Below, one piece after another: positions 2,121 to 44,645 of a stretch of DNA of 46,886 nt. Below the pieces are notes generated by a model that saw only the letters and a list, made by a program, of their open reading frames with translations, was not told the DNA's origin and made no database searches. The stretch is taken from positions 1-46,886 of IMG/VR virus record IMGVR_UViG_3300003690_000025. One strand, written 5' to 3'. This DNA comes from a virus. Numbering within the stretch: the stretch's first letter is position 1; each line of letters opens with the position of its first letter. The translations under genes and the position numbers were made by a program.

Positions 2121-2320
2121 TGGCGAAGAAGAAGATTGAGATAAAGGGCAGATGGGTTGGTTATACACCCAGCGGTGGTAGCCGTATCGAGGACCAGGAG
2201 GAGGCTCTGCGGCTATTGCGCCGAAGGACCTGTTTTGAGTGTGAACATGAGCAGTCATCCGATGGGCCTTGTGAGAAGTGTGGTGGGTCTTGTGAGTGGA
2301 GGGGGAGGGGAAATGAATGA
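2120..2320 (+). CDS. Small zinc-finger-like protein
   Basis: A 66-residue basic protein preceded by a GAGGAGG-type ribosome site. It has two cysteine pairs, CFEC and CEKC, with a further GGSC, spaced as in a zinc ribbon. Such small zinc proteins often bind nucleic acid, but no specific function is recognised. It starts in the stop of the preceding gene (TAATG) and overlaps the methyltransferase start by 8 nt, so the three are probably translationally coupled. Confidence 0.65.
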   Translation: MAKKKIEIKGRWVGYTPSGGSRIEDQEEALRLLRRRTCFECEHEQSSDGPCEKCGGSCEWRGRGNE

Positions 2321-3191
2321 GTTGGCTTTATTCGCGGGTGCTGGTGGAGGAATACTCGGTGGTCAGCTCCTTGGGTGGCGAACCGTCTGCGCAGTCGAAA
2401 ACGACGCCTATGCCGCAAGCATACTTGTCGCCCGTCAAAACGACGGGTGCTTGGAGCCGTTTCCGGTCTGGGATGACGTTAGGACATTTAACGGAAAGCC
2501 GTGGCGAGGAGTTGTTGACGTTGTATCGGGCGGGTTTCCGTGCCAGGACATCAGCGCGGCTGGAGGAGGGGCGGGGATTAGTGGTTCCCGAAGCGGGCTC
2601 TGGGTGGAGTTTGCTAGGGTCATTTACGAAGTTCGACCCCGATACGTCTTCGTGGAAAACTCGCCAGTTCTCACTTCTCGGGGGCTCGGAGAGGTACTCG
2701 GAGACCTGGCCGAGATGGGGTACGATGCGGAGTGGGGAGTGCTTGGAGCGCACCATGCCGACGCGCCTCATAAGCGAGATCGAATCTGGGTGTGCGCCCA
2801 ACGACAACAAGCGGGACAAGTGGCCTACCCCGCGTGCGAGCCCGAACGAGAACCGTCAAACAAAGCCATCCCCGACCCAACTCGCATGCCGGCGCGGCAT
2901 GAGCCTAGCTGTGGCTGTGAATCTATGGCCTACACCAGCGGCGACAGACTACAAAGGCAGCTCCAGAAAGGGGCAGAGGCGCGGCCAGCTAACCGACCCG
3001 GCAATGGGCGTGATCCCGGCTGGTGGGAGTCTGAACCCAACGTGGGTCGAGTGGCTGATGGGGTGGCCGCTCGGGTGGACCGACTTCGATGTGTCGGAAA
3101 CGGACAGGTCCCAGCGGTGGCAGCAATGGCGTGGGGCGTTCTGTCCCAGCGACTCGGGAAACCACGCGCCACAAAAGGAGAATTGAAATGA
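2313..3191 (+). CDS. DNA (cytosine-5) methyltransferase
   Basis: A 292-residue C5-cytosine methyltransferase. Motif I is LFAGAGGG near the N-terminus (SAM binding). Motif IV is GGFPCQDIS with the catalytic nucleophile Cys77. Motif VI is FVENS, motif VIII RDRIWV, and motif X GNGQVPAVAA at the end. The region between VIII and X, the target-recognition part, is short and low in obvious structure. I place the start at ATG 2313 behind GGGGGAGGGG; an upstream in-frame start would run through the preceding gene. It probably protects phage DNA from host restriction, as no restriction enzyme is nearby. Almost its whole length is also open in the +1 frame (2317-3186). Confidence 0.9.
   Translation: MNELALFAGAGGGILGGQLLGWRTVCAVENDAYAASILVARQNDGCLEPFPVWDDVRTFNGKPWRGVVDVVSGGFPCQDISAAGGGAGISGSRSGLWVEFARVIYEVRPRYVFVENSPVLTSRGLGEVLGDLAEMGYDAEWGVLGAHHADAPHKRDRIWVCAQRQQAGQVAYPACEPEREPSNKAIPDPTRMPARHEPSCGCESMAYTSGDRLQRQLQKGAEARPANRPGNGRDPGWWESEPNVGRVADGVAARVDRLRCVGNGQVPAVAAMAWGVLSQRLGKPRATKGELK
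2317..3186 (+). CDS. Long overprinted frame inside the methyltransferase, WPTP / NPxWVEWLMGW family
   Basis: A 289-codon frame in the +1 frame of the methyltransferase. Its ATG lies 4 nt after the methyltransferase ATG, so both could use the same ribosome site, and its stop lies 5 nt before that gene's stop. It has ordered features: FDPDTSSWKT at residue 106, a W-P-R-x-G-T-M-R-S-G stretch near 130, WPTP at 169 and 204, and NPTWVEWLMGWPLGWTD at 240-256. I recall these same motifs, in this order, from proteins in other phages, often near cytosine methyltransferases. They may be a real overprinted gene, or a family that exists only as frame-shifted reading of methyltransferase genes. Function unknown. 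Confidence 0.5.
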   Translation: MSWLYSRVLVEEYSVVSSLGGEPSAQSKTTPMPQAYLSPVKTTGAWSRFRSGMTLGHLTESRGEELLTLYRAGFRARTSARLEEGRGLVVPEAGSGWSLLGSFTKFDPDTSSWKTRQFSLLGGSERYSETWPRWGTMRSGECLERTMPTRLISEIESGCAPNDNKRDKWPTPRASPNENRQTKPSPTQLACRRGMSLAVAVNLWPTPAATDYKGSSRKGQRRGQLTDPAMGVIPAGGSLNPTWVEWLMGWPLGWTDFDVSETDRSQRWQQWRGAFCPSDSGNHAPQKEN

Positions 3192-20687: not shown

Positions 20688-23600
20688 ATGGTTACCGGAC
20701 CAGGAAAGAGTGGCATCGAAGGGCTGCCGACCTCCGACTTCATCCAAGGCAAGACTCCAAAGCCGCTCGTGCCTGGCGGTGCGGACCCGGACGTAATGGA
20801 ACGACTCAGAGCTCCGCACCTCTACGGACCAATGTCGGAGCCAGGACTTGCTGGTGTCAGCCAGCCCGAGACCGCAACAGAGCCCTATATGTCTAAGATG
20901 TTCGAGCTTGGTGATGCCAGCCAGGAAGCAGCAGCCGCCCGGCAGAACCTCCGTGCCTTGGCAGCGGAGCCAGACTATGAGCAGCTTTTCTCCGGCTACA
21001 GGGAGCCACCAGCTCAGACTGTCGGCGCACCACCCCCTGCACCGCCAGCCCATGCGACAGGCCTCATGGACCCTGACTTTCCGTATTTTGAAGAGCCCAT
21101 GGTCGAGCGGCCACGAAAAAAGGCCCGCGACCCATTCAAGGAGCGGGTAACGGACAGGGTGGCCCTAGAGCGCCAAAAGAAGAAAGAGGTCGAAGCGAGG
21201 GTCAGCCAGCTAAAGAGCTTTATTCAAGACAGTGTCTCCAGAGAAACTGGATCTCCAGCACTGGACGCGGTTGTAGATTTCGCAGCCCGAGTTCAAGCCC
21301 ATCTCGTGCCCCCAGAAGACGAGGCCCTCGTTGGCGAGCTAGATGACTACCGCAAGGCGCTGGCCTTTGCCGATACGGACCTTGAGGTGGAGATAAATGA
21401 TATACGAGCCAGAACAGATCTGACCGAAAGACAGAAGCGCGAGCTCATCAAGCAGGCCAGGAGCGGGCATAGAGATCTAGTCTCTCGCCTGGCACCGCGC
21501 AAGGGTGAAGAGTTTGTCCAGCATTGGCTGTCAGAGTTCGACAAAGGGCGAGAGGAGCCCTATATGTCTAAGATGTTCGAGCTTGGCGAGGCTGGCGATA
21601 AGAAGGGTCAGGAGCGGCTAACCCAGGACGAGTATGCCAAGAGGGACAAGCGGGCCGCCAGGCTAAGGACGATATCTGAAAACCTAGACAACAGGCCCTT
21701 CGTCGAGCAGGAGCGCGACAAGCTGCTGAAGGGGTTTGAAAAGGAAAGAGAAGCCCTTGCCAAAGACCTTGAAGGGCGTCTAAGGCCGGTTGCCAAGCAG
21801 GTGCTCCTCGAGTCCCCTACCCAATACTTTGACCTGTGGGGCACCACCTCCCCGGACAAGCTGAAGTTTCAGATCAACCCAAACGGATCCTTTGGCTTGG
21901 TGGCACCAAAAGCCAAGTCAACCATCACGGTGGATCAGATCCGAGAGGTAATGGCTACACCTGGGAAGTATGCCGATGGCACCTCTGACCCCAAACATAG
22001 CCGCTATGTAATGGAAGGTGGGACCATCGCGTTCCCTGGCGACCCATCTAGGGGACTACGAAACAGTCCTGACGGATCGCCCGTGCTCGAGGAGGCCACT
22101 AGCCTTTTTGGTTTCGGAAAGATCGGCGCTCGTCGGCTGGCGGAAGGTGGAAGAGTTGTTATGACCCTGAAGGGCAGCGACCTTCCCGTGCGAGTCAGGC
22201 TTATACCCGGCAAGGACAACGACTATTTCATAATAGAGGACTGGGGCGACAACGCCAAAGACAGCGAGGACGAGGAGAACAAGCTCGTCTACCAGTACGC
22301 TACAACGGAAAGCAGGCTCAAAAAGCAAGACCTAAAGTATATGCTGTCAGCAAATAAGCTGCTGCCATACGCAAAGCTTATGGATGCTGGTTACCGGAAG
22401 GGCATCCTTCATGTGATCGACCCAGGGACCATGACAGGCACGTCTTTAGGCCTCCCTGCCAACCCAGCCCCGGCAGCGGAGGACGAGCACACACAAGAAG
22501 GCTACCTGGGGCTTTTGAAGGACGAGCTTAAAGGTAAGGTGGAGGCCCTGTTAAGGTCAGTCAACCCGATTAACCAAGAGGGTTATGTTAATGCTTGGAA
22601 GGGGCAGGCGGCTGGTGCCGGGATAGATCCTGAAGCTGTTGATCTGGAGATGCACCCATTTGTTCTGTCGCCCGACCTTCCACCGTGGCACTACGCAATG
22701 GCTTTCTTTGTGGCCGGATATGACTTGACTGAAGCCTCCTTTGGTGACCCCGGTGCGCCGGAAGATAAGAAGAAGGCTGCTCTGTTCAGGAAGGCGCAGG
22801 AGCTTTGGATCAGGGGAAACTTGCCCACAGACGAGGGCCTAAAGGTTCTGCAGAAGATCATCACCGACATGCGTGGGGGAGAGGATGTCGTACCGATAGA
22901 GGAGATAGAGGCCATCTGGATGGCGGATCTGCCTAAGTACCAGGCACAAGCCAAGAAAATGCTTGTAGATACCCTGTTGCCGGTCGAGAAGCGTTACGGC
23001 ATACCAGCTACGCTGGCACCGTCCAGCGCGGGTGCCGACAACATGGCAGACCTGCTTTACGCCAGTGTGGCTGTCCCCTGGTCCGTTTGGATCAGGCTGC
23101 CAGAAGAAGAGCGCTGGGTAGACAGCAGGGGTCGTCGCATCTGGCCTATTAGCGATAAAATGTATGGAGAGGTGAGCGATTTACCAGAAGACAACAAGGT
23201 GTTCCAAGACGCTGTCGATCTGTTTGGTATCCGCAATATAGACAGGCTGATTAACCCTGCATACCACTCCCTCGTGACCCTGGAAAACTACTGGGCCAGG
23301 CTTCCGTACAATAGGCACGCAACAGACAAAGCGCTCCGGAGCAGGTTGTTTAGGATACAAAAAAGCACCCCGGTCCAGAGAGAGGCCGTGGTGTCGGCCC
23401 TGGCGGTAGCGTCCACCATAGCCAATGACGGAAGCAGATCAACATCAAAAGGCGCGGCAACGTCTATGGATGTGGCGACCTCGCTGTTCAGGAACATGAC
23501 AAGGCTCGGGAAAGACATAGACACAACCGGGCTTAATTTGGCGCAAGCCCTGGCTGCACGCAAAGTGGCGTCGGGCCAGCATTACCTAGACGTGGCCGAG

Positions 23601-26600
23601 GCGGTGGGCGATGCGCACTCTAAGTTGTATGCAGACAGAACCTGGAAGGAGTTCGCTCTCGACCAATTCAATTCGGCCACCGATGTATTTCACGGCGCGG
23701 TGCATCTCGTTTTGAGCGGTGCCGAGATTGTAATTGAAGACACCCCACACCTTCTCGTCGGCGGAGGGCTAGAGCTTTCAACATGGGCGTTTGCAGATGA
23801 CCCAGACGAGGGGCTTGATGTTGGTATTCAGACGGACGAGCGCGGGAGGGTTCTGATTACAGGGAGGGATGCGCAGCGCTACCTGCGGCGGCGGGTAACC
23901 CCTCGTGGTGCGAGCAAGATGTACCGGATAGGGAAGGCTATACGGAAAGAGGGTTCCGGTGCCTTAGCGGGCAAGCTGAGGGCCTTGGTGGAGTTTCCGG
24001 AGGCTATGGCACATCACTTCTCGGAGTACTTGATCAGTCCTGTAGCCAAGGTAAAGTATGGTATTGAGTATGATAATGCAGGGATGCTGCTCGATTTTCT
24101 GGTTCTTCATGGTGCCGGCAAGGCGCTTAGTGGTCTGAATGCAAGGGGGTTTGGGAGAAGGGCTGATGGTAAGTGGGGGGAGGTTGAGATAATGCCTGCA
24201 AGGCCAGATCGCCCTGGTCGTATTTTGGAAAGGGAGAAAGCGCGGGCTCCGGAGATTATTGACATTACTCCGGCTGCTCCACGCCCGGCAGCCAAGGGTC
24301 TTGAAGATCTGCGTCAAACCAGCATACCGGAGAGCCGCACCGTTATTGATGTGACCTCAAAGGGTGCTGATATTCTGCCAGAGGTCCGAGCTAAGGCCCC
24401 AAAGGCTGCGGACGGGTTCGCTGAGAAGCTTGACCGGGCCATCACATACGGGGACGAGTCCGGTCTTATTTTGCGCCAGTTCGTGCATGAGAGTGAGCGG
24501 GGCGGGCCAGTTATTACCAAGCTAATACAGTCACACGAGGGCGGCATACGGGTCCTTGAAGTAGAAAACGCTTCGCGTAGCCACCGGGCCATAGATATGG
24601 CAGCGGCACAGCTCGGCATTGGCGGACTGCAAGGGCGGGGTGGCGGCATTCGCCCCATAACAACCGTAGAGCTGCTCGAACGAAGTTGGGAGAACTATGC
24701 ACCCAAGATTGTTGGGAAAGAGGGCAGGCATCAAATAAACATCATAACAAGAGACCCAAAAACAAGGAAGCCGAAGGGGAAGCCACGCCTCGTTGAGGTT
24801 GACATTGCAGAGACAGCCATGGCAATCGAGTCCGTGATCAACAAAGCGTCTGATGGTGGCCTGTCGCTCGCTCAGGTAATAGAGACAGCCGCAACCGGCG
24901 ATATGTTCCTGCACGCAGATGACTTCTACGTCATCGTAAAGGACCACGGCGGAGTCAGCGGGAACGAGTACGTCAGACTAAACCTAGAGGGTTTAAACGT
25001 ACTGCGCCCCGTAGACCTGCCCGGAAAACTACTAAAGAGAAAAGATGTCAAATTCTCAGAAAGGTATGTGGACAAAGCGAAGGGATATGCGCTCACTGAG
25101 CCGTTCAGGAAGTTCCTCGCAGAAAAAAAGACCGACGCCACCGACATACTAAGCTTTGTGGGTGAGCAGATGCAGACCCACGACACATTCGTGGCCGGCG
25201 GCTTAGAGCGACACAGTGTCCAGTTGTTTGATCTCGGAGAGAAGGGAACAGTGATGAAGGGGGACTACATCGCCCTCATGGACGACCAGGCAGCCGCCCA
25301 GGCCCTGCGACTTGTGCGCACGATGGCGCTCACCGACACGTCGCTTGCAAGTGTTCTCCCCGGCGGAGAGAACGCCATTGTGTTCCCACTCCTAAGAGCT
25401 CACGTCGAAATCAATACCGAGCTCAAGCTGCTTGAGTTCAACCTTCAGATGAAGGCCAGAGAAGAGAAATGGCCTCTGTCTGAGCTTGAAGGCAAGATGC
25501 GGGCTCTCCGAGAGGAGCACGGCGCTGCCCCCAGCCAACTAGAGCTATACTCAAAACCACTATACCGGCCACCAGGCCAGGCAAAGCCAACCGCAGAAAG
25601 GCTCGCTGGTGAGACCTCCACAGAGCGCGTGTGGAGAACGAGCGATATAGTAGAGGTTGACCTCCTTGACCTCGGCATACTGGAGGAGGTTGGCAACGGC
25701 GTCTACCGCCTAACCCCAAGAGCCATGAAGATATTCGTTGATGGCACCCCAGAGCTTGTCAGTCGGAACCTGGAGGTAATGGATCGAGGAGATATAATCA
25801 GCACCCTACGGAATTTCTCCGACATAACCGCCACTATGGATGACTCGCGGTTTGTTACCCCGGTAGAGACCCCGTTTAAACTGGGCGAGAAGCCCAAGGT
25901 GGCTGCGCGAGCCGTTCAAGCTTATGAGGTCGAAATAGGGGCCGGCCAAACAGGCTTTCCCAGGCCAGGTTACAGCTCGGAGGTCTTATCGTTGAGCAAG
26001 GTGCTTGAGAACCTTCGCATTGATGGGACCGCTGCGTATTCCAACATTGTTCGTGCTGAGTACGCTAGAGACTTAATCCCAGGGTCTGTCATACGGGAAA
26101 CAGTAAACTCTGTGCGAAACGTGGCCGATGTGGACCTGAAAAAGCCAAGGCTGGTCACAGTAAGGGAGGCTGACTCGCACTACCTGCTCTACAAAGAGGA
26201 CGGCAGCATTGTCACCGCGAAGGACCTCCGGCTGGCGTTCTCCGAAAAAGTGAAGTCCCTCCAGTCGATCCAGAAGATGGTGGGCGGCACTCTTGGGAAG
26301 AAAGGGACAACCGATCTGTTCCCGCCAGCGGACGCTGACCTGGCAAGCATAACGCCTGAAATGATTCACGCTCGCGCAAAGCTTGCAAAGGGTGAAAAGC
26401 GTCGGGTTATTATCGACGCCAAGGCTCTCATTGGCCGGAACGATTTGATTGAGGCAGTGCAAAAGGAAAAGCTTCGAGTGTACAAGGTCGGATTCAAGGC
26501 CGAGAACCACCTACCCGCGACCCACCCAGCCCTGCTGGTGAAAGCGAAGCCGACACGCAAGGCCATCATGGAGGCCGTTGCTCCAGACCTAACCGGCTAC

Positions 26601-29600
26601 GACCTGAGAAGCCACCCCCTTGGCGAAATGATGTACAGCTCCGCAGAGAATGTACCCCGTATACGCAAGATGATCGACCAGCTTTACCAGGGGCAGGTTT
26701 TAGGAGCCAACCTGTGGGAGCAGGGCCGCAAAGACAAAACAAACTACGGGGAGTTCAACGCCAAGGCTGCCGAAAAACAGACCAAGATGCGCCAGGAGCG
26801 ATACGCCAAGAACCCGACCGCCGCTGTTACCGACGCCTTTAGAAGCCTTTCGCAAATGGAGGCGACAGGACTCACATACCTCATGAGAACCGGCCATGTT
26901 CCACCAATTGCGTTGGGCGGGAAAAAGATGCCAAGCGGTGCGACGGAGATGGTCGAGGCCTGGGAGCGGGCTGGTTTTGTAGACATTGGCCCCGGCGGAG
27001 CTCCTCTGCTGAATGAGTTCGGTGTGCTTGGCTCTTTGCTTAACATGGACATATCCGCCAAGTTCTACGAGACCGCCTTCGCCAGGGCGCTGTTTGACAG
27101 GACTGCGATCAGGACCGGGCCGCTACAGGATCTAATGGACTTTAAGCAGTTCCTGCCCGAGGAGTATGCCGCTATCGGAGAGGTAGCAACCAGCCTATAC
27201 AACAACACGCACGCTATGCTTGGCTCCGCGCTTTCAGACCTTATCCATATCGGTGTTTACGATACGGATGCAGTGTTCAGAAACGCTATGACGCACTATT
27301 CCCTGAAGTTCCAGTCGCTTTTCCAAAAGGAGGCTGCCATGACTGACCTGATCGAGGTCATGAGAAGGACAGGTGGCGACAGGACCAAAAGTATTATGAA
27401 AAAGCGGTACACCGCCGGCATGACAATGAAAGAGATCCTCACGCTCTCCCAGACTGCCGGCCTGCCGCTCATGGCACTAACCCCATTCGAGGCAAATGTT
27501 CACTCTGTAATACAGGCAAAATACTCAATGGCCCTGGACGCTACAATCCACCAGCTTAGGCTAGATGGTATGATCCAGGCAGGCGAAAAGACCCGACGTA
27601 TCGTTGGCACAGGACCTAATCGCAAGATGGTCACTGAATGGATCTCCCCCGGCGAAGACTTTATACCACTCGACGGAGATAAGCTTATCGGCAGAACCAT
27701 CTCCAAAGACGCGGCTGAGACGAAAATACAAAAGATCATGGACAGACGCCCCGAAGCGCCAACCCTACCAACCGTAGACGACACCAAGGCGTATGTTGAG
27801 TGGTTTGAAAAAACAAGCCAGTACACAGAGGAGTTCAACCAGTGGAGCCACGACCTTGCCAGAGCTGAAGCCGAGATGGCCGAGGCCGGGCTTTCGGAGG
27901 CCCCAATCAAGCAGTACCTGCGAGACAAAGTCGGAGAGCAGTGGTTTATTAGACGCGCCCAGGCAGAGGTGCTTGGACTCGAGGCAGACATAAAGTTCCA
28001 CCTCTGGTCGAGCCGAAGAAGCCGCAGATACAACGCAGCGATGCTTGCACCAAAGCTTGTTGACGCAGCCCTGGGGATAGCCTTACGCAGAGGGGCACAG
28101 GTTGGTGACTGGCTTCGCGGTGGCAAAGGGTTTATCCCGAGAATGCAGTCCGTGTTCAAGGTGAACAAACTCATGAGGGGCGCTGCTGGCCCAATTGCGC
28201 GAAACGTCATAACGAATGTTGTGCAGCTATGGATGCACTACCCCGAATATGCTGCTGACCCCAGCTTCTGGAGGTACTTCGCAGAGTACGATGACTTTAT
28301 CGAGAACGGCCCAGACCCCAGCAATGCGTTCCACATGATGGTTGTCGAGCACAGCATCGTACAGCACGGAGTTATGCGGGAGGCCGGCCTCGGAGAGATA
28401 CCCAGCGTTGCCGGCGCTCGCCACCAAAGGATTATTAACGCCGCCTTCAACAGATCCAAGATGAGCAAGGTCTTGAGCGGCGAGGTCAACATGACGGCTG
28501 ACCACGCAGTGAGGCTTGCTGAGGCGCTTGCCGCTGGCGAGGTTGAGCTCGTAATGGACCTGATGCCGTCAACTATGACTGTTGACCAAGTCGCAGAGAT
28601 GTTCCCTGCGGTAGAGGGGCAGTCGCCTGAGATGACAAGGAAGATTATTGAAGGCCTCGTGGAGCACGCTAAAAGCCCAAAGGGGAAGGCCCAGAGACTT
28701 AAGGCAATCGCGGTGTCGCTGACAAAGGAGCTACTGCCAAGAGACGCCAGCCTGGAGTCGATACTAGACGGAAACGTCCACATCAAGGACATACCCAAAG
28801 AAGTGATTGAATACTTGACAGACCCATACGCAGAGGCACCCAAGGGCTTCAGCGCAAGAGACATCGTAAACTACGGGACACGATGGATAACCGAGCTCTT
28901 TGATAAAAACGCCCGCATTGGCACAGACAAGGTAACAGCCCGTGCAGCCAAGGCTTTCACCAAAACTGACGATGGGTTTAAGTTCGCCCTGTCCGGAAAG
29001 CTCTGGGACAAGGGCGTCCGAGACGGGTTCGAGAACAAGAAAAAGGTTGGGGAGACATATGTCAGCTACCAAAACATCAAGCCGGTAGAGAGGGCATACA
29101 CGGTGTTTGCCCCGTTCGGTGTATGGCTTACAAGGTCTGCGGGCATATTCGGACGGTTTATAAAAAGACACCCACTGCGAGCTCGAGCCCTTATGATGGT
29201 TCACGATCACTACACAGCCGACATGATGGAAGACCCAGATAACCTGATGGCCTGGATGATGCTGCCGTGGGAGAAGGCGCGGTCTGCGCACCTCACGTCA
29301 ATGGGCTGGCTCGACGGAAGTGCAGCTAACATATTTGGCCCATACGCAGAGCAGCGGGCCTTCCTGAACAATCCCGCGCTACAAATACCGTGGGAGGTAG
29401 CCAAAACGATTTACGGTGGCGGCGTCCCGTTCTACTCGGATGACCCGCTCTCATGGACAAACAAGCACGCTCTAGCGATTGGACAGCTGATCGACCAGAA
29501 CATTACCGGGGGCTACACCTACAATCTCTACAGCTCTGCCCTCAACACAGCCAACAACCTTATTCGCTACTCCGGAGACAACGAGCTCGGGTTTGATGGG

Positions 29601-30296
29601 GTGATGGATGCCATCGTGCAGGGTCAGACTGGTGGGCGGATGATTGAGTCCCTTAAGCGTGACCCCTGGGGGAAGACGGCAGAAAAGGTGACCCGAAGCC
29701 TTTTGGGTACGTCCTTGCTGCACCCCGACCCTGAAGCTAACAAGGCGCGGCTCGAAAGGTTAAACGAGGCCCTTTTGGCTGCGGCCCGAAGGGTGGAGGC
29801 AGATCCTGTTGGCCAGGCCCAGGCAAGAAGAACAAAGAAGATGTCTACCTCCGACGCGGAGCAGGTTGAGGTGAAAAACCAGGCAAGGACAGACGCCTTG
29901 AGGGCGGCCATGGCCACATCCCAGTGGATCCAAAGACAGGGCATCATGCGCAACGCGCCCTATATCTTTGCCTTGGTGGAAGATCAGCTGAAGGAAAATA
30001 TGTCGGAGTACCTCCGAGAGTACCATGTGCCGGAGAGAGTGGAGAAGATGATAAGGTATAAGTTTGCCGGCAAAGAGACCCACGATGTTCTCAGGGCCTG
30101 GTATGATTACTACTGGTCTGAGGCGTACAAGGAGGGTATTAAGATCCACGATGAGCAGATGAAAAAAGCTAACAAAAATAAAGGCATGGAGCTGGATAAG
30201 CCACCGGCAAGTGAGGGGACCGATGTGTTATACCCCTACGACGAGCCACTGCTACAGCAAATTGACGGCCTGTACGGGAGAGAGCCGCTAGATTAA
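20688..30296 (+). CDS. 3202-residue giant internal virion / polyvalent ejection-type protein
   Basis: One open frame of 9.6 kb, about a fifth of the genome. It is rich in charged helices and has no signal peptide. The C-terminal third contains segments typical of large polyvalent phage proteins: an RGAAGPIARNVITNV stretch near the last quarter, then TVFAPFGVWLTRSAGIFGRF. Such proteins are packaged in the capsid and ejected with the DNA, carrying anti-host or DNA-entry domains. I found no convincing helicase, methyltransferase, protease or RNA polymerase motifs. The N-terminal 300 residues carry the peptide EPYMSKMFELG twice (at 65 and 290). Its place after two helical virion proteins supports a core-protein role. 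Confidence 0.75.
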   Translation: MVTGPGKSGIEGLPTSDFIQGKTPKPLVPGGADPDVMERLRAPHLYGPMSEPGLAGVSQPETATEPYMSKMFELGDASQEAAAARQNLRALAAEPDYEQLFSGYREPPAQTVGAPPPAPPAHATGLMDPDFPYFEEPMVERPRKKARDPFKERVTDRVALERQKKKEVEARVSQLKSFIQDSVSRETGSPALDAVVDFAARVQAHLVPPEDEALVGELDDYRKALAFADTDLEVEINDIRARTDLTERQKRELIKQARSGHRDLVSRLAPRKGEEFVQHWLSEFDKGREEPYMSKMFELGEAGDKKGQERLTQDEYAKRDKRAARLRTISENLDNRPFVEQERDKLLKGFEKEREALAKDLEGRLRPVAKQVLLESPTQYFDLWGTTSPDKLKFQINPNGSFGLVAPKAKSTITVDQIREVMATPGKYADGTSDPKHSRYVMEGGTIAFPGDPSRGLRNSPDGSPVLEEATSLFGFGKIGARRLAEGGRVVMTLKGSDLPVRVRLIPGKDNDYFIIEDWGDNAKDSEDEENKLVYQYATTESRLKKQDLKYMLSANKLLPYAKLMDAGYRKGILHVIDPGTMTGTSLGLPANPAPAAEDEHTQEGYLGLLKDELKGKVEALLRSVNPINQEGYVNAWKGQAAGAGIDPEAVDLEMHPFVLSPDLPPWHYAMAFFVAGYDLTEASFGDPGAPEDKKKAALFRKAQELWIRGNLPTDEGLKVLQKIITDMRGGEDVVPIEEIEAIWMADLPKYQAQAKKMLVDTLLPVEKRYGIPATLAPSSAGADNMADLLYASVAVPWSVWIRLPEEERWVDSRGRRIWPISDKMYGEVSDLPEDNKVFQDAVDLFGIRNIDRLINPAYHSLVTLENYWARLPYNRHATDKALRSRLFRIQKSTPVQREAVVSALAVASTIANDGSRSTSKGAATSMDVATSLFRNMTRLGKDIDTTGLNLAQALAARKVASGQHYLDVAEAVGDAHSKLYADRTWKEFALDQFNSATDVFHGAVHLVLSGAEIVIEDTPHLLVGGGLELSTWAFADDPDEGLDVGIQTDERGRVLITGRDAQRYLRRRVTPRGASKMYRIGKAIRKEGSGALAGKLRALVEFPEAMAHHFSEYLISPVAKVKYGIEYDNAGMLLDFLVLHGAGKALSGLNARGFGRRADGKWGEVEIMPARPDRPGRILEREKARAPEIIDITPAAPRPAAKGLEDLRQTSIPESRTVIDVTSKGADILPEVRAKAPKAADGFAEKLDRAITYGDESGLILRQFVHESERGGPVITKLIQSHEGGIRVLEVENASRSHRAIDMAAAQLGIGGLQGRGGGIRPITTVELLERSWENYAPKIVGKEGRHQINIITRDPKTRKPKGKPRLVEVDIAETAMAIESVINKASDGGLSLAQVIETAATGDMFLHADDFYVIVKDHGGVSGNEYVRLNLEGLNVLRPVDLPGKLLKRKDVKFSERYVDKAKGYALTEPFRKFLAEKKTDATDILSFVGEQMQTHDTFVAGGLERHSVQLFDLGEKGTVMKGDYIALMDDQAAAQALRLVRTMALTDTSLASVLPGGENAIVFPLLRAHVEINTELKLLEFNLQMKAREEKWPLSELEGKMRALREEHGAAPSQLELYSKPLYRPPGQAKPTAERLAGETSTERVWRTSDIVEVDLLDLGILEEVGNGVYRLTPRAMKIFVDGTPELVSRNLEVMDRGDIISTLRNFSDITATMDDSRFVTPVETPFKLGEKPKVAARAVQAYEVEIGAGQTGFPRPGYSSEVLSLSKVLENLRIDGTAAYSNIVRAEYARDLIPGSVIRETVNSVRNVADVDLKKPRLVTVREADSHYLLYKEDGSIVTAKDLRLAFSEKVKSLQSIQKMVGGTLGKKGTTDLFPPADADLASITPEMIHARAKLAKGEKRRVIIDAKALIGRNDLIEAVQKEKLRVYKVGFKAENHLPATHPALLVKAKPTRKAIMEAVAPDLTGYDLRSHPLGEMMYSSAENVPRIRKMIDQLYQGQVLGANLWEQGRKDKTNYGEFNAKAAEKQTKMRQERYAKNPTAAVTDAFRSLSQMEATGLTYLMRTGHVPPIALGGKKMPSGATEMVEAWERAGFVDIGPGGAPLLNEFGVLGSLLNMDISAKFYETAFARALFDRTAIRTGPLQDLMDFKQFLPEEYAAIGEVATSLYNNTHAMLGSALSDLIHIGVYDTDAVFRNAMTHYSLKFQSLFQKEAAMTDLIEVMRRTGGDRTKSIMKKRYTAGMTMKEILTLSQTAGLPLMALTPFEANVHSVIQAKYSMALDATIHQLRLDGMIQAGEKTRRIVGTGPNRKMVTEWISPGEDFIPLDGDKLIGRTISKDAAETKIQKIMDRRPEAPTLPTVDDTKAYVEWFEKTSQYTEEFNQWSHDLARAEAEMAEAGLSEAPIKQYLRDKVGEQWFIRRAQAEVLGLEADIKFHLWSSRRSRRYNAAMLAPKLVDAALGIALRRGAQVGDWLRGGKGFIPRMQSVFKVNKLMRGAAGPIARNVITNVVQLWMHYPEYAADPSFWRYFAEYDDFIENGPDPSNAFHMMVVEHSIVQHGVMREAGLGEIPSVAGARHQRIINAAFNRSKMSKVLSGEVNMTADHAVRLAEALAAGEVELVMDLMPSTMTVDQVAEMFPAVEGQSPEMTRKIIEGLVEHAKSPKGKAQRLKAIAVSLTKELLPRDASLESILDGNVHIKDIPKEVIEYLTDPYAEAPKGFSARDIVNYGTRWITELFDKNARIGTDKVTARAAKAFTKTDDGFKFALSGKLWDKGVRDGFENKKKVGETYVSYQNIKPVERAYTVFAPFGVWLTRSAGIFGRFIKRHPLRARALMMVHDHYTADMMEDPDNLMAWMMLPWEKARSAHLTSMGWLDGSAANIFGPYAEQRAFLNNPALQIPWEVAKTIYGGGVPFYSDDPLSWTNKHALAIGQLIDQNITGGYTYNLYSSALNTANNLIRYSGDNELGFDGVMDAIVQGQTGGRMIESLKRDPWGKTAEKVTRSLLGTSLLHPDPEANKARLERLNEALLAAARRVEADPVGQAQARRTKKMSTSDAEQVEVKNQARTDALRAAMATSQWIQRQGIMRNAPYIFALVEDQLKENMSEYLREYHVPERVEKMIRYKFAGKETHDVLRAWYDYYWSEAYKEGIKIHDEQMKKANKNKGMELDKPPASEGTDVLYPYDEPLLQQIDGLYGREPLD
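20880..20911 (+). repeat. 32 bp direct repeat, copy 1, inside the giant gene
   Basis: This 32 bp stretch is identical to 21555-21586, 675 bp apart and in the same frame. It encodes EPYMSKMFELG, followed in each case by a similar acidic Gly/Ala segment. Identity at synonymous positions points to recent copying or nucleotide-level selection. Confidence 0.85.
21555..21586 (+). repeat. 32 bp direct repeat, copy 2, inside the giant gene
   Basis: Second identical copy of the 20880-20911 sequence, encoding the peptide again at residue 290. It may be a short recognition motif, for example for packaging into the head or for processing; this is inference. Confidence 0.85.
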
Positions 30297-43648: not shown

Positions 43649-43930
43649 TTATCCCCCTATGTGCTTTTTGATGGCTTCTACCAGCGCATCTGTTTTGTGC
43701 CACAGGTGGCGCAGGTCAACGCCACAGCTATCAAATTCCAGACGTCCAACCCTGGGAACTGGTAGGCACAAGAGCCTTGCACCGTCGCCAGACACACCCG
43801 GCGTACAGACATGTCGGATATGGGCTACCTGTTTTGTTCCCCGGTAGACAGCCCCACCAGCATAGACTATCCACTGCTCACCATCGCGATAGGTTGAGCC
43901 GCCCACGTAGGTTGTATTTCCTTTTTTCAT
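43649..43930 (-). CDS. Small hypothetical protein
   Basis: 93 residues with start at ATG 43930 behind GGAGGAG; longer frames run through the next gene. Beta-rich (TYVGGSTYRDGEQWIVYAGG), with three cysteines and a helical end. No family recognised. Confidence 0.55.
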   Translation of the reverse strand: MKKGNTTYVGGSTYRDGEQWIVYAGGAVYRGTKQVAHIRHVCTPGVSGDGARLLCLPVPRVGRLEFDSCGVDLRHLWHKTDALVEAIKKHIGG

Positions 43931-43940
43931 TTTCTCCTCC

Positions 43941-44645
43941 TTAATGTGCCACAATGGCGATATCTTTTCGGTTATCTGCAATCCCAGTACGACCATTGCA
44001 AAGTTGACAACGCTCGCACGTAGTCCGATGGCCTGCCTCCTTTGATGCGGGGCATAGTATTTCACCTGGTACCACGTCATCCACGCTATCGATGATACGA
44101 AAGGTGCGGTAACCTTTCTGCTTTGCCTGTTCTCGTTCGGCAAGGGTGTGGACGCTCGCCATAACATGCCGCCCCATGAGACGGAAAGGTGATCGCCATT
44201 GGTGGGAGTACCCGGTATGCGTGCCAGTTGCGTCCCACACAATGGGAGGTACTGCCATCGGGTCCCCATAGGAACCAACGCGCACCTTGCGACCGCCCAC
44301 CATGGCGCGTACCTCGTGCAATGGCGTCACGGGTAGGTCACGGTTCGCCTTCCATACAGAGCGCGGGGCTTGGAATACTCGCACGTAGCAAGACTTGGTT
44401 GATACCTCGTCGCGTTTAAACAGTGTCGGTCGTAGCGGACAGTCACCGCATACCGCAGAATCATCCCCCGTCTTGACCGCATGATGCGGCGGCGTATCGT
44501 ACAGTAGAATCCAAGTCTGCAACATGTCACCAGTTTTCGTGTTGGTGCTGGCCTTCTTGAGACCAGATAAGAGTACCACGATTCTCCGCCCTTCTTCGTC
44601 TATCAAAGACGGACCATCATAGATTTTAATTGTATTCGCTCGCAT
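43941..44645 (-). CDS. Conserved phage protein with VGSYGDP motif and CxxC clusters (DUF7227-like)
   Basis: 234 residues, AAGGGGAAACAAG before ATG 44645. It has the conserved pattern I recall for this family: LLSGLKKASTNTKTGDMLQT, CGDCPLR, KVRVGSYGDP, TGYSHQW, then LCPASKEAGHRTTCERCQLC at the end. The four-cysteine clusters suggest zinc or an Fe-S cluster. Function is not known to me; the name DUF7227 is from memory. The gene carries an internal GTTTAAAC (44414). Confidence 0.7.
   Translation of the reverse strand: MRANTIKIYDGPSLIDEEGRRIVVLLSGLKKASTNTKTGDMLQTWILLYDTPPHHAVKTGDDSAVCGDCPLRPTLFKRDEVSTKSCYVRVFQAPRSVWKANRDLPVTPLHEVRAMVGGRKVRVGSYGDPMAVPPIVWDATGTHTGYSHQWRSPFRLMGRHVMASVHTLAEREQAKQKGYRTFRIIDSVDDVVPGEILCPASKEAGHRTTCERCQLCNGRTGIADNRKDIAIVAH

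Follow-up and report, generated by a model that had tools for sequence, protein, structure and literature searches.

Layout of the overlapping frames

The window, i.e., the whole stretch of viral DNA that was analyzed, comprises the 46,886 nt of IMG/VR record IMGVR_UViG_3300003690_000025. Two ORFs, F0 in frame 0 and F1 in frame +1, overlap on one strand of the window and, together with their flanking signals, show the following features:

2298..2310, + strand: purine-rich, Shine-Dalgarno-like stretch GGAGGGGGAGGGG, identified from the sequence and common to both starts
2313..3191, + strand: F0, 292 aa; catalytic (alpha-like) cytosine-5 methyltransferase subunit containing motifs I-VIII and X
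2317..3186, + strand: F1, a +1 ORF of 289 aa overprinted on F0; the proposed specificity (beta-like) subunit, containing recognition modules and motif IX
2317..2320, + strand: ATGA, in which the F1 start overlaps the stop of an upstream ORF (2120-2320)
2313..2792, + strand: F0 codons 1-160, motifs I-VIII, under F0-dominated constraint; F1 is open here and moderately constrained from about residue 100
2793..3020, + strand: F0 codons 161-236, where F0 is a disordered, unconstrained linker and F1 is selected
2821..2925, + strand: F1 recognition module 1, WPTPRASPNENRQTKPSPTQLACRRGMSLAVAVNL, with related modules in L035 and L318 at 63%
2926..3033, + strand: F1 recognition module 2, WPTPAATDYKGSSRKGQRRGQLTDPAMGVIPAGGSL, with a related module in L298 at 75%
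3034..3084, + strand: F1 equivalent of motif IX, NPTWVEWLMGWPLGWTD, where F0 reads EPNVGRVADGVAARVDR; assigned by hhalign and F1-type constraint, with the F0 arginines also kept
3078..3137, + strand: F0 motif X, VDRLRCVGNGQVPAVAAMAW, under F0-dominated constraint

In agreement with an earlier note on this DNA, the two ATGs (2313 and 2317) lie 4 nt apart behind a single purine-rich ribosome site, GGGGGAGGGG at 2301-2310, 5' of both, and the frames end 5 nt apart, with stops at 3191 and 3186. FDPDTSSW, two WPTP units, and NPTWVEWLMGWPLGWTD, which the note had assigned to F1, were all present in that frame. The ORF directly upstream (2120-2320, +) encodes 66 aa with CxxC pairs, is zinc-ribbon-like, and ends on the F1 ATG; translational coupling between this ORF and F1 through the ATGA overlap at 2317-2320 is possible.

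Shuffled versions of the gene that kept the F0 protein and codon usage had a mean of 3.7 stops in the F1 frame, with zero stops in 0.5% of them, and the +2 frame of the window gene contains 15 stops. Same-strand pairs of ORFs (each ≥200 codons) with an overlap of >300 nt occurred twice in the window, F0/F1 being one of them, and antisense ORF overlaps were common. The window alone is thus suggestive only, and the case rests on relatives. The other same-strand pair (43649-44645, - strand) has a shorter overlap, and one of its ORFs matches phrog_2554 (profile positions 283-512). Elsewhere in the window, Pfam and PHROG searches gave no match for a 3202-codon ORF (20688-30296, +).

Conservation of both frames in relatives

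Four separate queries supplied the relatives: F1 itself (L001-L080), F0 (L081-L154), a distant Lacticaseibacillus phage F1 (L177-L256), and an F1 alignment run against bacterial and archaeal genomes (L257-L336). These loci are the matches listed, picked by similarity, and are related sequences, so significance values are descriptive. Counts of +1 stops were made over ORF extents or codon ranges and exclude the TGA at the F0 start and the stop of F1 itself. All 240 loci listed for the F1 queries, which cover two phage types and 80 genomes, sit on an F0-type methyltransferase, 238 of them overlapping the F0 ORF at +1, and no free-standing F1 was found among them. Across L001-L080, the +1 frame was open over >90% of the F0 ORF in every locus, with F0 interrupted in L011. 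Overlap at +1 was recorded for 79 of the 80 loci fetched with the distant F1, a set in which F0 of L192 is interrupted upstream and F1 of L247 is broken, and for 79 of the 80 bacterial and archaeal loci, L316 being a rearranged gene with parts of both frames in one ORF. Copies of F0/F1 sharing the same first module were found in Myxococcus genomes (L306, L308, L311, and L317), three of these contigs belonging to one species.

Since F1-fetched loci are biased at VEWLMG, key tests were redone on F0-fetched loci, where F1 was open over >90% of F0 in 58 of 74. The earlier note had held that in a real overprinted pair the +1 frame of close homologs should stay open; none of the 55 window-class F0-fetched genes had a +1 stop over codons 2-155 (null, 2.9 per gene), and frequent stops were not seen. 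Five F0-fetched loci considered as lacking a full F1 (L132, L142, L144, L150, and L151) were rejected as such, as they encode a shorter F1 ending in or just past the motif IX-like segment. The methyltransferases of L147-L149 are monomeric, their motif IX lying in frame. In L139-L141, an indel fuses the F0 N-terminal half in frame to the F1 C-terminal half, which could be a natural fusion, the result of gene decay, or a misassembly. The F0/F1 arrangement is present in hundreds of phage and bacterial genomes and is usually annotated as one gene; in one Paenibacillus phage annotation, that of a Paenibacillus larvae Fernvirus, the +1 ORF is listed as 'g49 internal gene'.

Of 139 relatives, 100 have a Shine-Dalgarno-like 4-mer upstream and 119 have ATGA at F0+4, including relatives whose F0 begins codons earlier. 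Wherever an F0-fetched gene has Asn at F0 position 2, the codon is AAT, the one that yields the F1 ATG, yet AAC is as common as AAT in these genes overall. F1 appears to have its own start, the conserved ATG at F0+4, from which it would be translated.

Four-fold synonymous identity among diverged F0-fetched genes was 0.31 at F0 codons 81-100 (expected 0.30), rose to 0.59 at codons 121-140 (expected 0.30), and reached 0.84 at codons 241-260 (expected 0.29), bearing out the F0 synonymous-site constraint that the earlier note had looked to. As a control, synonymous constraint at motifs IX and X was sought in monomeric methyltransferases with motif IX in F0, and none was found (observed.337/.322, expected.338/.323 at IX/X). 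The substitution pattern was then read in 43 disjoint close pairs as per-codon differences at F1 positions 1/2/3. Values of.036/.229/.078 at residues 1-100 and.044/.267/.102 at residues 258-275 (motif X) mark an F0 regime, and those of.269/.252/.433 at residues 161-236 and.060/.073/.186 at residues 237-257 mark an F1 regime. The regime therefore flips along the gene, from F0 at 1-160 to F1 at 161-257 and back to F0 at 258-275. F1 residues 61-100 are under hardly any constraint except openness, and around motif IX both frames are held, F1 keeping WVEWLMGWP and F0 keeping its arginines via CGA/AGA switching. The mutual constraint of the frames described in the earlier note is limited to about 101-160 and 237-257; outside these segments the two frames share out the work, an indication of a single enzyme with two subunits.

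Each F1 contains 0-5 WPTP units, mostly 1-3, of about 28-50 aa each. Among 572 WPTP modules from 279 loci, pairs at 0.75-0.90 F1 identity averaged 0.81 in F1, 0.41 in F0, and 0.42 in the third frame, and in one phage-bacterium module pair F1 is 90% identical and F0 29%. Across the modules, therefore, F0 conservation does not exceed that of a non-coding frame. Module families recur at differing array positions and in unrelated arrays, and are common to phages and bacteria; in some gene pairs, the catalytic halves are 92-97% identical and the module regions only 16-30% identical. Such turnover is what recognition-domain swapping looks like, and the modules would accordingly be candidates for reading DNA.

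Were F1 untranslated, its openness and similarity would have to be a shadow of conserved F0 codons. Some F1 motifs are partly shadows, e.g., WGMMRNG, which also occurs in the +1 frame of monomeric methyltransferases, opposite EMGYDAEW. For the module region, where F0 behaves as non-coding, this explanation is refuted, and the synonymous constraint in F0 and the retention of F1 in F0-dead relatives also speak against it, leaving it exceedingly improbable. The mis-framed annotation that the earlier note had offered as a possible source of F1 is likewise rejected, and the real overprinted pair that it had set beside this is supported by +1 openness and synonymous constraint in relatives. Conservation across relatives confirms that the overlap is far beyond chance and that both frames code, each being selected at the protein level.

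A second, different +1 overprint was observed over F0 codons ~10-220 of monomeric phage C5 methyltransferases (L337-L416). At least 54 of 59 tested genes (GC 0.39) had an open +1 frame, with a median of 170 codons (null about 31), that ends shortly past a conserved +1 peptide, CSLSDILExxVxxKYFLSE; F0 codons 161-176 hardly varied at their third bases (.914 vs.337). This +1 ORF is widespread in Streptococcus phages, and all 26 aligned members match phrog_16143. Overprinting of these enzymes extends beyond the split type, and, given this different +1 ORF over monomeric methyltransferases, some other role is possible for the F1 N-terminal half.

Division of methyltransferase motifs between the two frames

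F0 matches Pfam PF00145 (E 3e-30) over residues 4-176 only, as well as phrog_363 (1e-63). It carries motifs I-VIII with PCQ and ENS, as expected of a single-chain C5 enzyme, and its profile match to C5 methyltransferases ends after motif VIII. The AlphaFold2 model (pTM 0.71) is well folded at 1-170 and 258-282, with 175-257 predicted to be disordered, and Foldseek related it to the large domain of M.HhaI/M.HaeIII. Motif X lies within the F0 chain as VGNGQVPAVAAMAW, in a confident helix (265-282) under F0-type constraint. A TRD and motif IX were sought in the F0 chain through the profile, predicted disorder, and module-region conservation, and neither was found. The earlier statement that frame 0 has all methyltransferase motifs does not hold, motif IX and a conserved TRD being missing from F0. 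EPNVGRVADGV, which had been taken as a C-terminal methyltransferase signature, does share its bases with NPTWVEWLMGWPLGWTD of F1 as claimed, but is not an independent signature; it is largely a shadow of the F1 motif IX, because the DNA of this segment gains F0 stops in F0-dead relatives. In three loci (L270, L284, and L286), one stop interrupts F0 near or beyond motif VIII, and downstream F0, including motif X, and F1 are both intact; this is either a sequencing error or a sign of motif X as a separate peptide.

F1 has no catalytic motif. It matches phrog_1008 (E 3e-26), as do 127 of 128 relatives, and no Pfam, NCBIfam, or PADLOC model matched F1-type proteins. Its AlphaFold model was poor (pLDDT 58), and a profile search for a solved structure gave apolipoprotein E only, which was taken as chance. 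In unguided hhalign comparisons, LNPTWVEWLMGWPLGWTD / VEWLMG of F1 lands on canonical motif IX with a weak E of 0.06, and in relatives with motif X in F1 the alignment spans IX then X in order, also with a weak E (0.02). The C-terminal segment of F1 appears to be motif IX-like, an assignment for which the positional argument is stronger than the hhalign E-values.

Motif X is not confined to F0. In L130, L305, L312, and L314, which derive from a phage contig and from Spirochaetia, Kiritimatiellae, and Paraburkholderia genomes, F0 stops after motif VIII, the downstream F0 frame has several to many stops, and F1 extends past its modules and motif IX to encode its own motif X. Since motif X is needed once and sits in either frame, this is best explained by one enzyme made from both products. 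Three further loci flagged by pattern as carrying motif X in F1 (L125, L137, and L138) were not confirmed by sequence read-out and are not counted. In Mycobacterium phages (L156 and L167-L176), the methylase is annotated as two genes in an AquI-like layout, F0 carrying motifs I-VIII and the +1 ORF carrying LPTP units and motif IX (FSEWMLGWPEGW), with motif X also in the +1 ORF of L156 and L170. Gordonia phage CheeseTouch (L155) encodes motif IX (FAEWMMGLPDG) and motif X in F0 and LPTP units in the +1 ORF, so motif IX too can lie in either frame.

We propose, with a probability of roughly 85%, that two fully overlapping genes in the window specify the two protein chains of a single cytosine-5 DNA methyltransferase, in the manner of EcoHK31I, with swappable recognition modules in F1. 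F0 would be the catalytic subunit, providing AdoMet binding, the PCQ cysteine, the ENS motif, and motif X. F1, begun 4 nt downstream on the same mRNA, would be the specificity subunit that docks on F0 and brings motif IX together with a tandem array of exchangeable WPTP modules for recognizing the target sequence. Across the module DNA, F0 would then be no more than a flexible linker that carries the ribosome on to motif X. From the sequences we infer a heterodimer of F0 and F1 with the modules as its DNA-reading units, by which the phage probably methylates its own DNA, either for escape from host restriction or for gene regulation.

Alternatively, F1 might be a real overprinted protein that is not an enzyme subunit, such as a separate anti-restriction or regulatory phage factor. 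That it has no Pfam, NCBIfam, or PADLOC match is in keeping with this, as is the persistence of its N-terminal half as a different +1 ORF over monomeric methyltransferases. We consider such a factor unlikely given that F1 never occurs apart from a methyltransferase in the 240 listed F1-fetched loci, that its motif IX-like segment falls exactly where F0 has none, and that four clean cases have motif X relocated to F1. A model in which the ribosome shifts to +1 after motif VIII, joining the F0 catalytic half to the F1 modules and motif IX in one polypeptide, is quite improbable: F1 is open upstream across the catalytic half (55/55) with ATG and Shine-Dalgarno sequence conserved, the C-terminal residues of truncated F0 products share no obvious shift site by eye, and a further, reverse shift would be required for the window type to reach motif X. 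One +1 shift would nonetheless place motifs I-VIII, modules, IX, and X in one chain in L130, L305, L312, and L314, and L139-L141 could be seen as natural F0-to-F1 frame fusions.

If the two-subunit enzyme is correct, the F0/F1 overlap on one strand would be conserved, very widespread, and functionally grounded, catalysis lying in one frame and target choice in the other, and specificity would be lost when the annotated frame is cloned alone or recoded synonymously. The F1 modules would form a library for mapping sequence to recognized target, and the placement of motif X in F0 or F1 a natural series on enzymes split between overlapping genes. The odds seem about even that many one-gene phage and bacterial cytosine methyltransferases are half-enzymes, with recognition lying in a +1 array of 1-5 exchangeable cassettes, each recognizing a target of its own and passed between phages and bacteria, opposite a catalytic frame that is here a meaningless linker.

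Comparison with known methyltransferases

Literature searches for F0/F1-type overlap in phages turned up only out-of-frame HNH insertions, as in ShiLan, where an HNH endonuclease is hidden in the phage methylase gene (PMC11855218). The two cases are alike in having an out-of-frame protein within a phage methylase gene; the ShiLan HNH is a sporadic homing insertion, whereas F1 would be a conserved enzyme partner. Among PHROG profiles, both phrog_1008 and phrog_16143 ('DNA methyltransferase') match +1-frame proteins, and the name is thereby attached to a protein without catalytic motifs.

The multispecific C5 methyltransferases of Bacillus subtilis phages (SPR and phi3T), to which PMC4081073 refers, are single chains with tandem short recognition modules that are variable in number and exchangeable. 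F1 resembles them in its tandem exchangeable modules, whose recognition of DNA is presumptive, but carries the array on a separate protein in an overprinted frame. M.AquI has catalytic motifs I-VIII on one chain and motifs IX and X on a second (PMC3404938). Motifs I-VIII and IX are likewise on separate chains in the window, and L130, L305, L312, and L314 have motif X in F1, as in AquI beta; unlike M.AquI, the window pair retains motif X in F0.

M.EcoHK31I has motifs I-VIII and X on a large subunit, to which its TRD is assigned, and motif IX on a second, small polypeptide (PMC3404938). F0, with motifs I-VIII and X, and F1, with its motif IX-like segment, match this motif layout. Lee et al. reportedly found in 1995 that the small subunit of EcoHK31I is read from a different frame within the large-subunit gene. 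By its motif layout, the window pair would work like EcoHK31I and is a candidate member of that type. Unlike M.EcoHK31I, the window enzyme is solitary, with no restriction gene recognized beside F0/F1, its F1 spans nearly all of F0 (289/292 aa), and selection places the recognition region in F1 instead of the large subunit.
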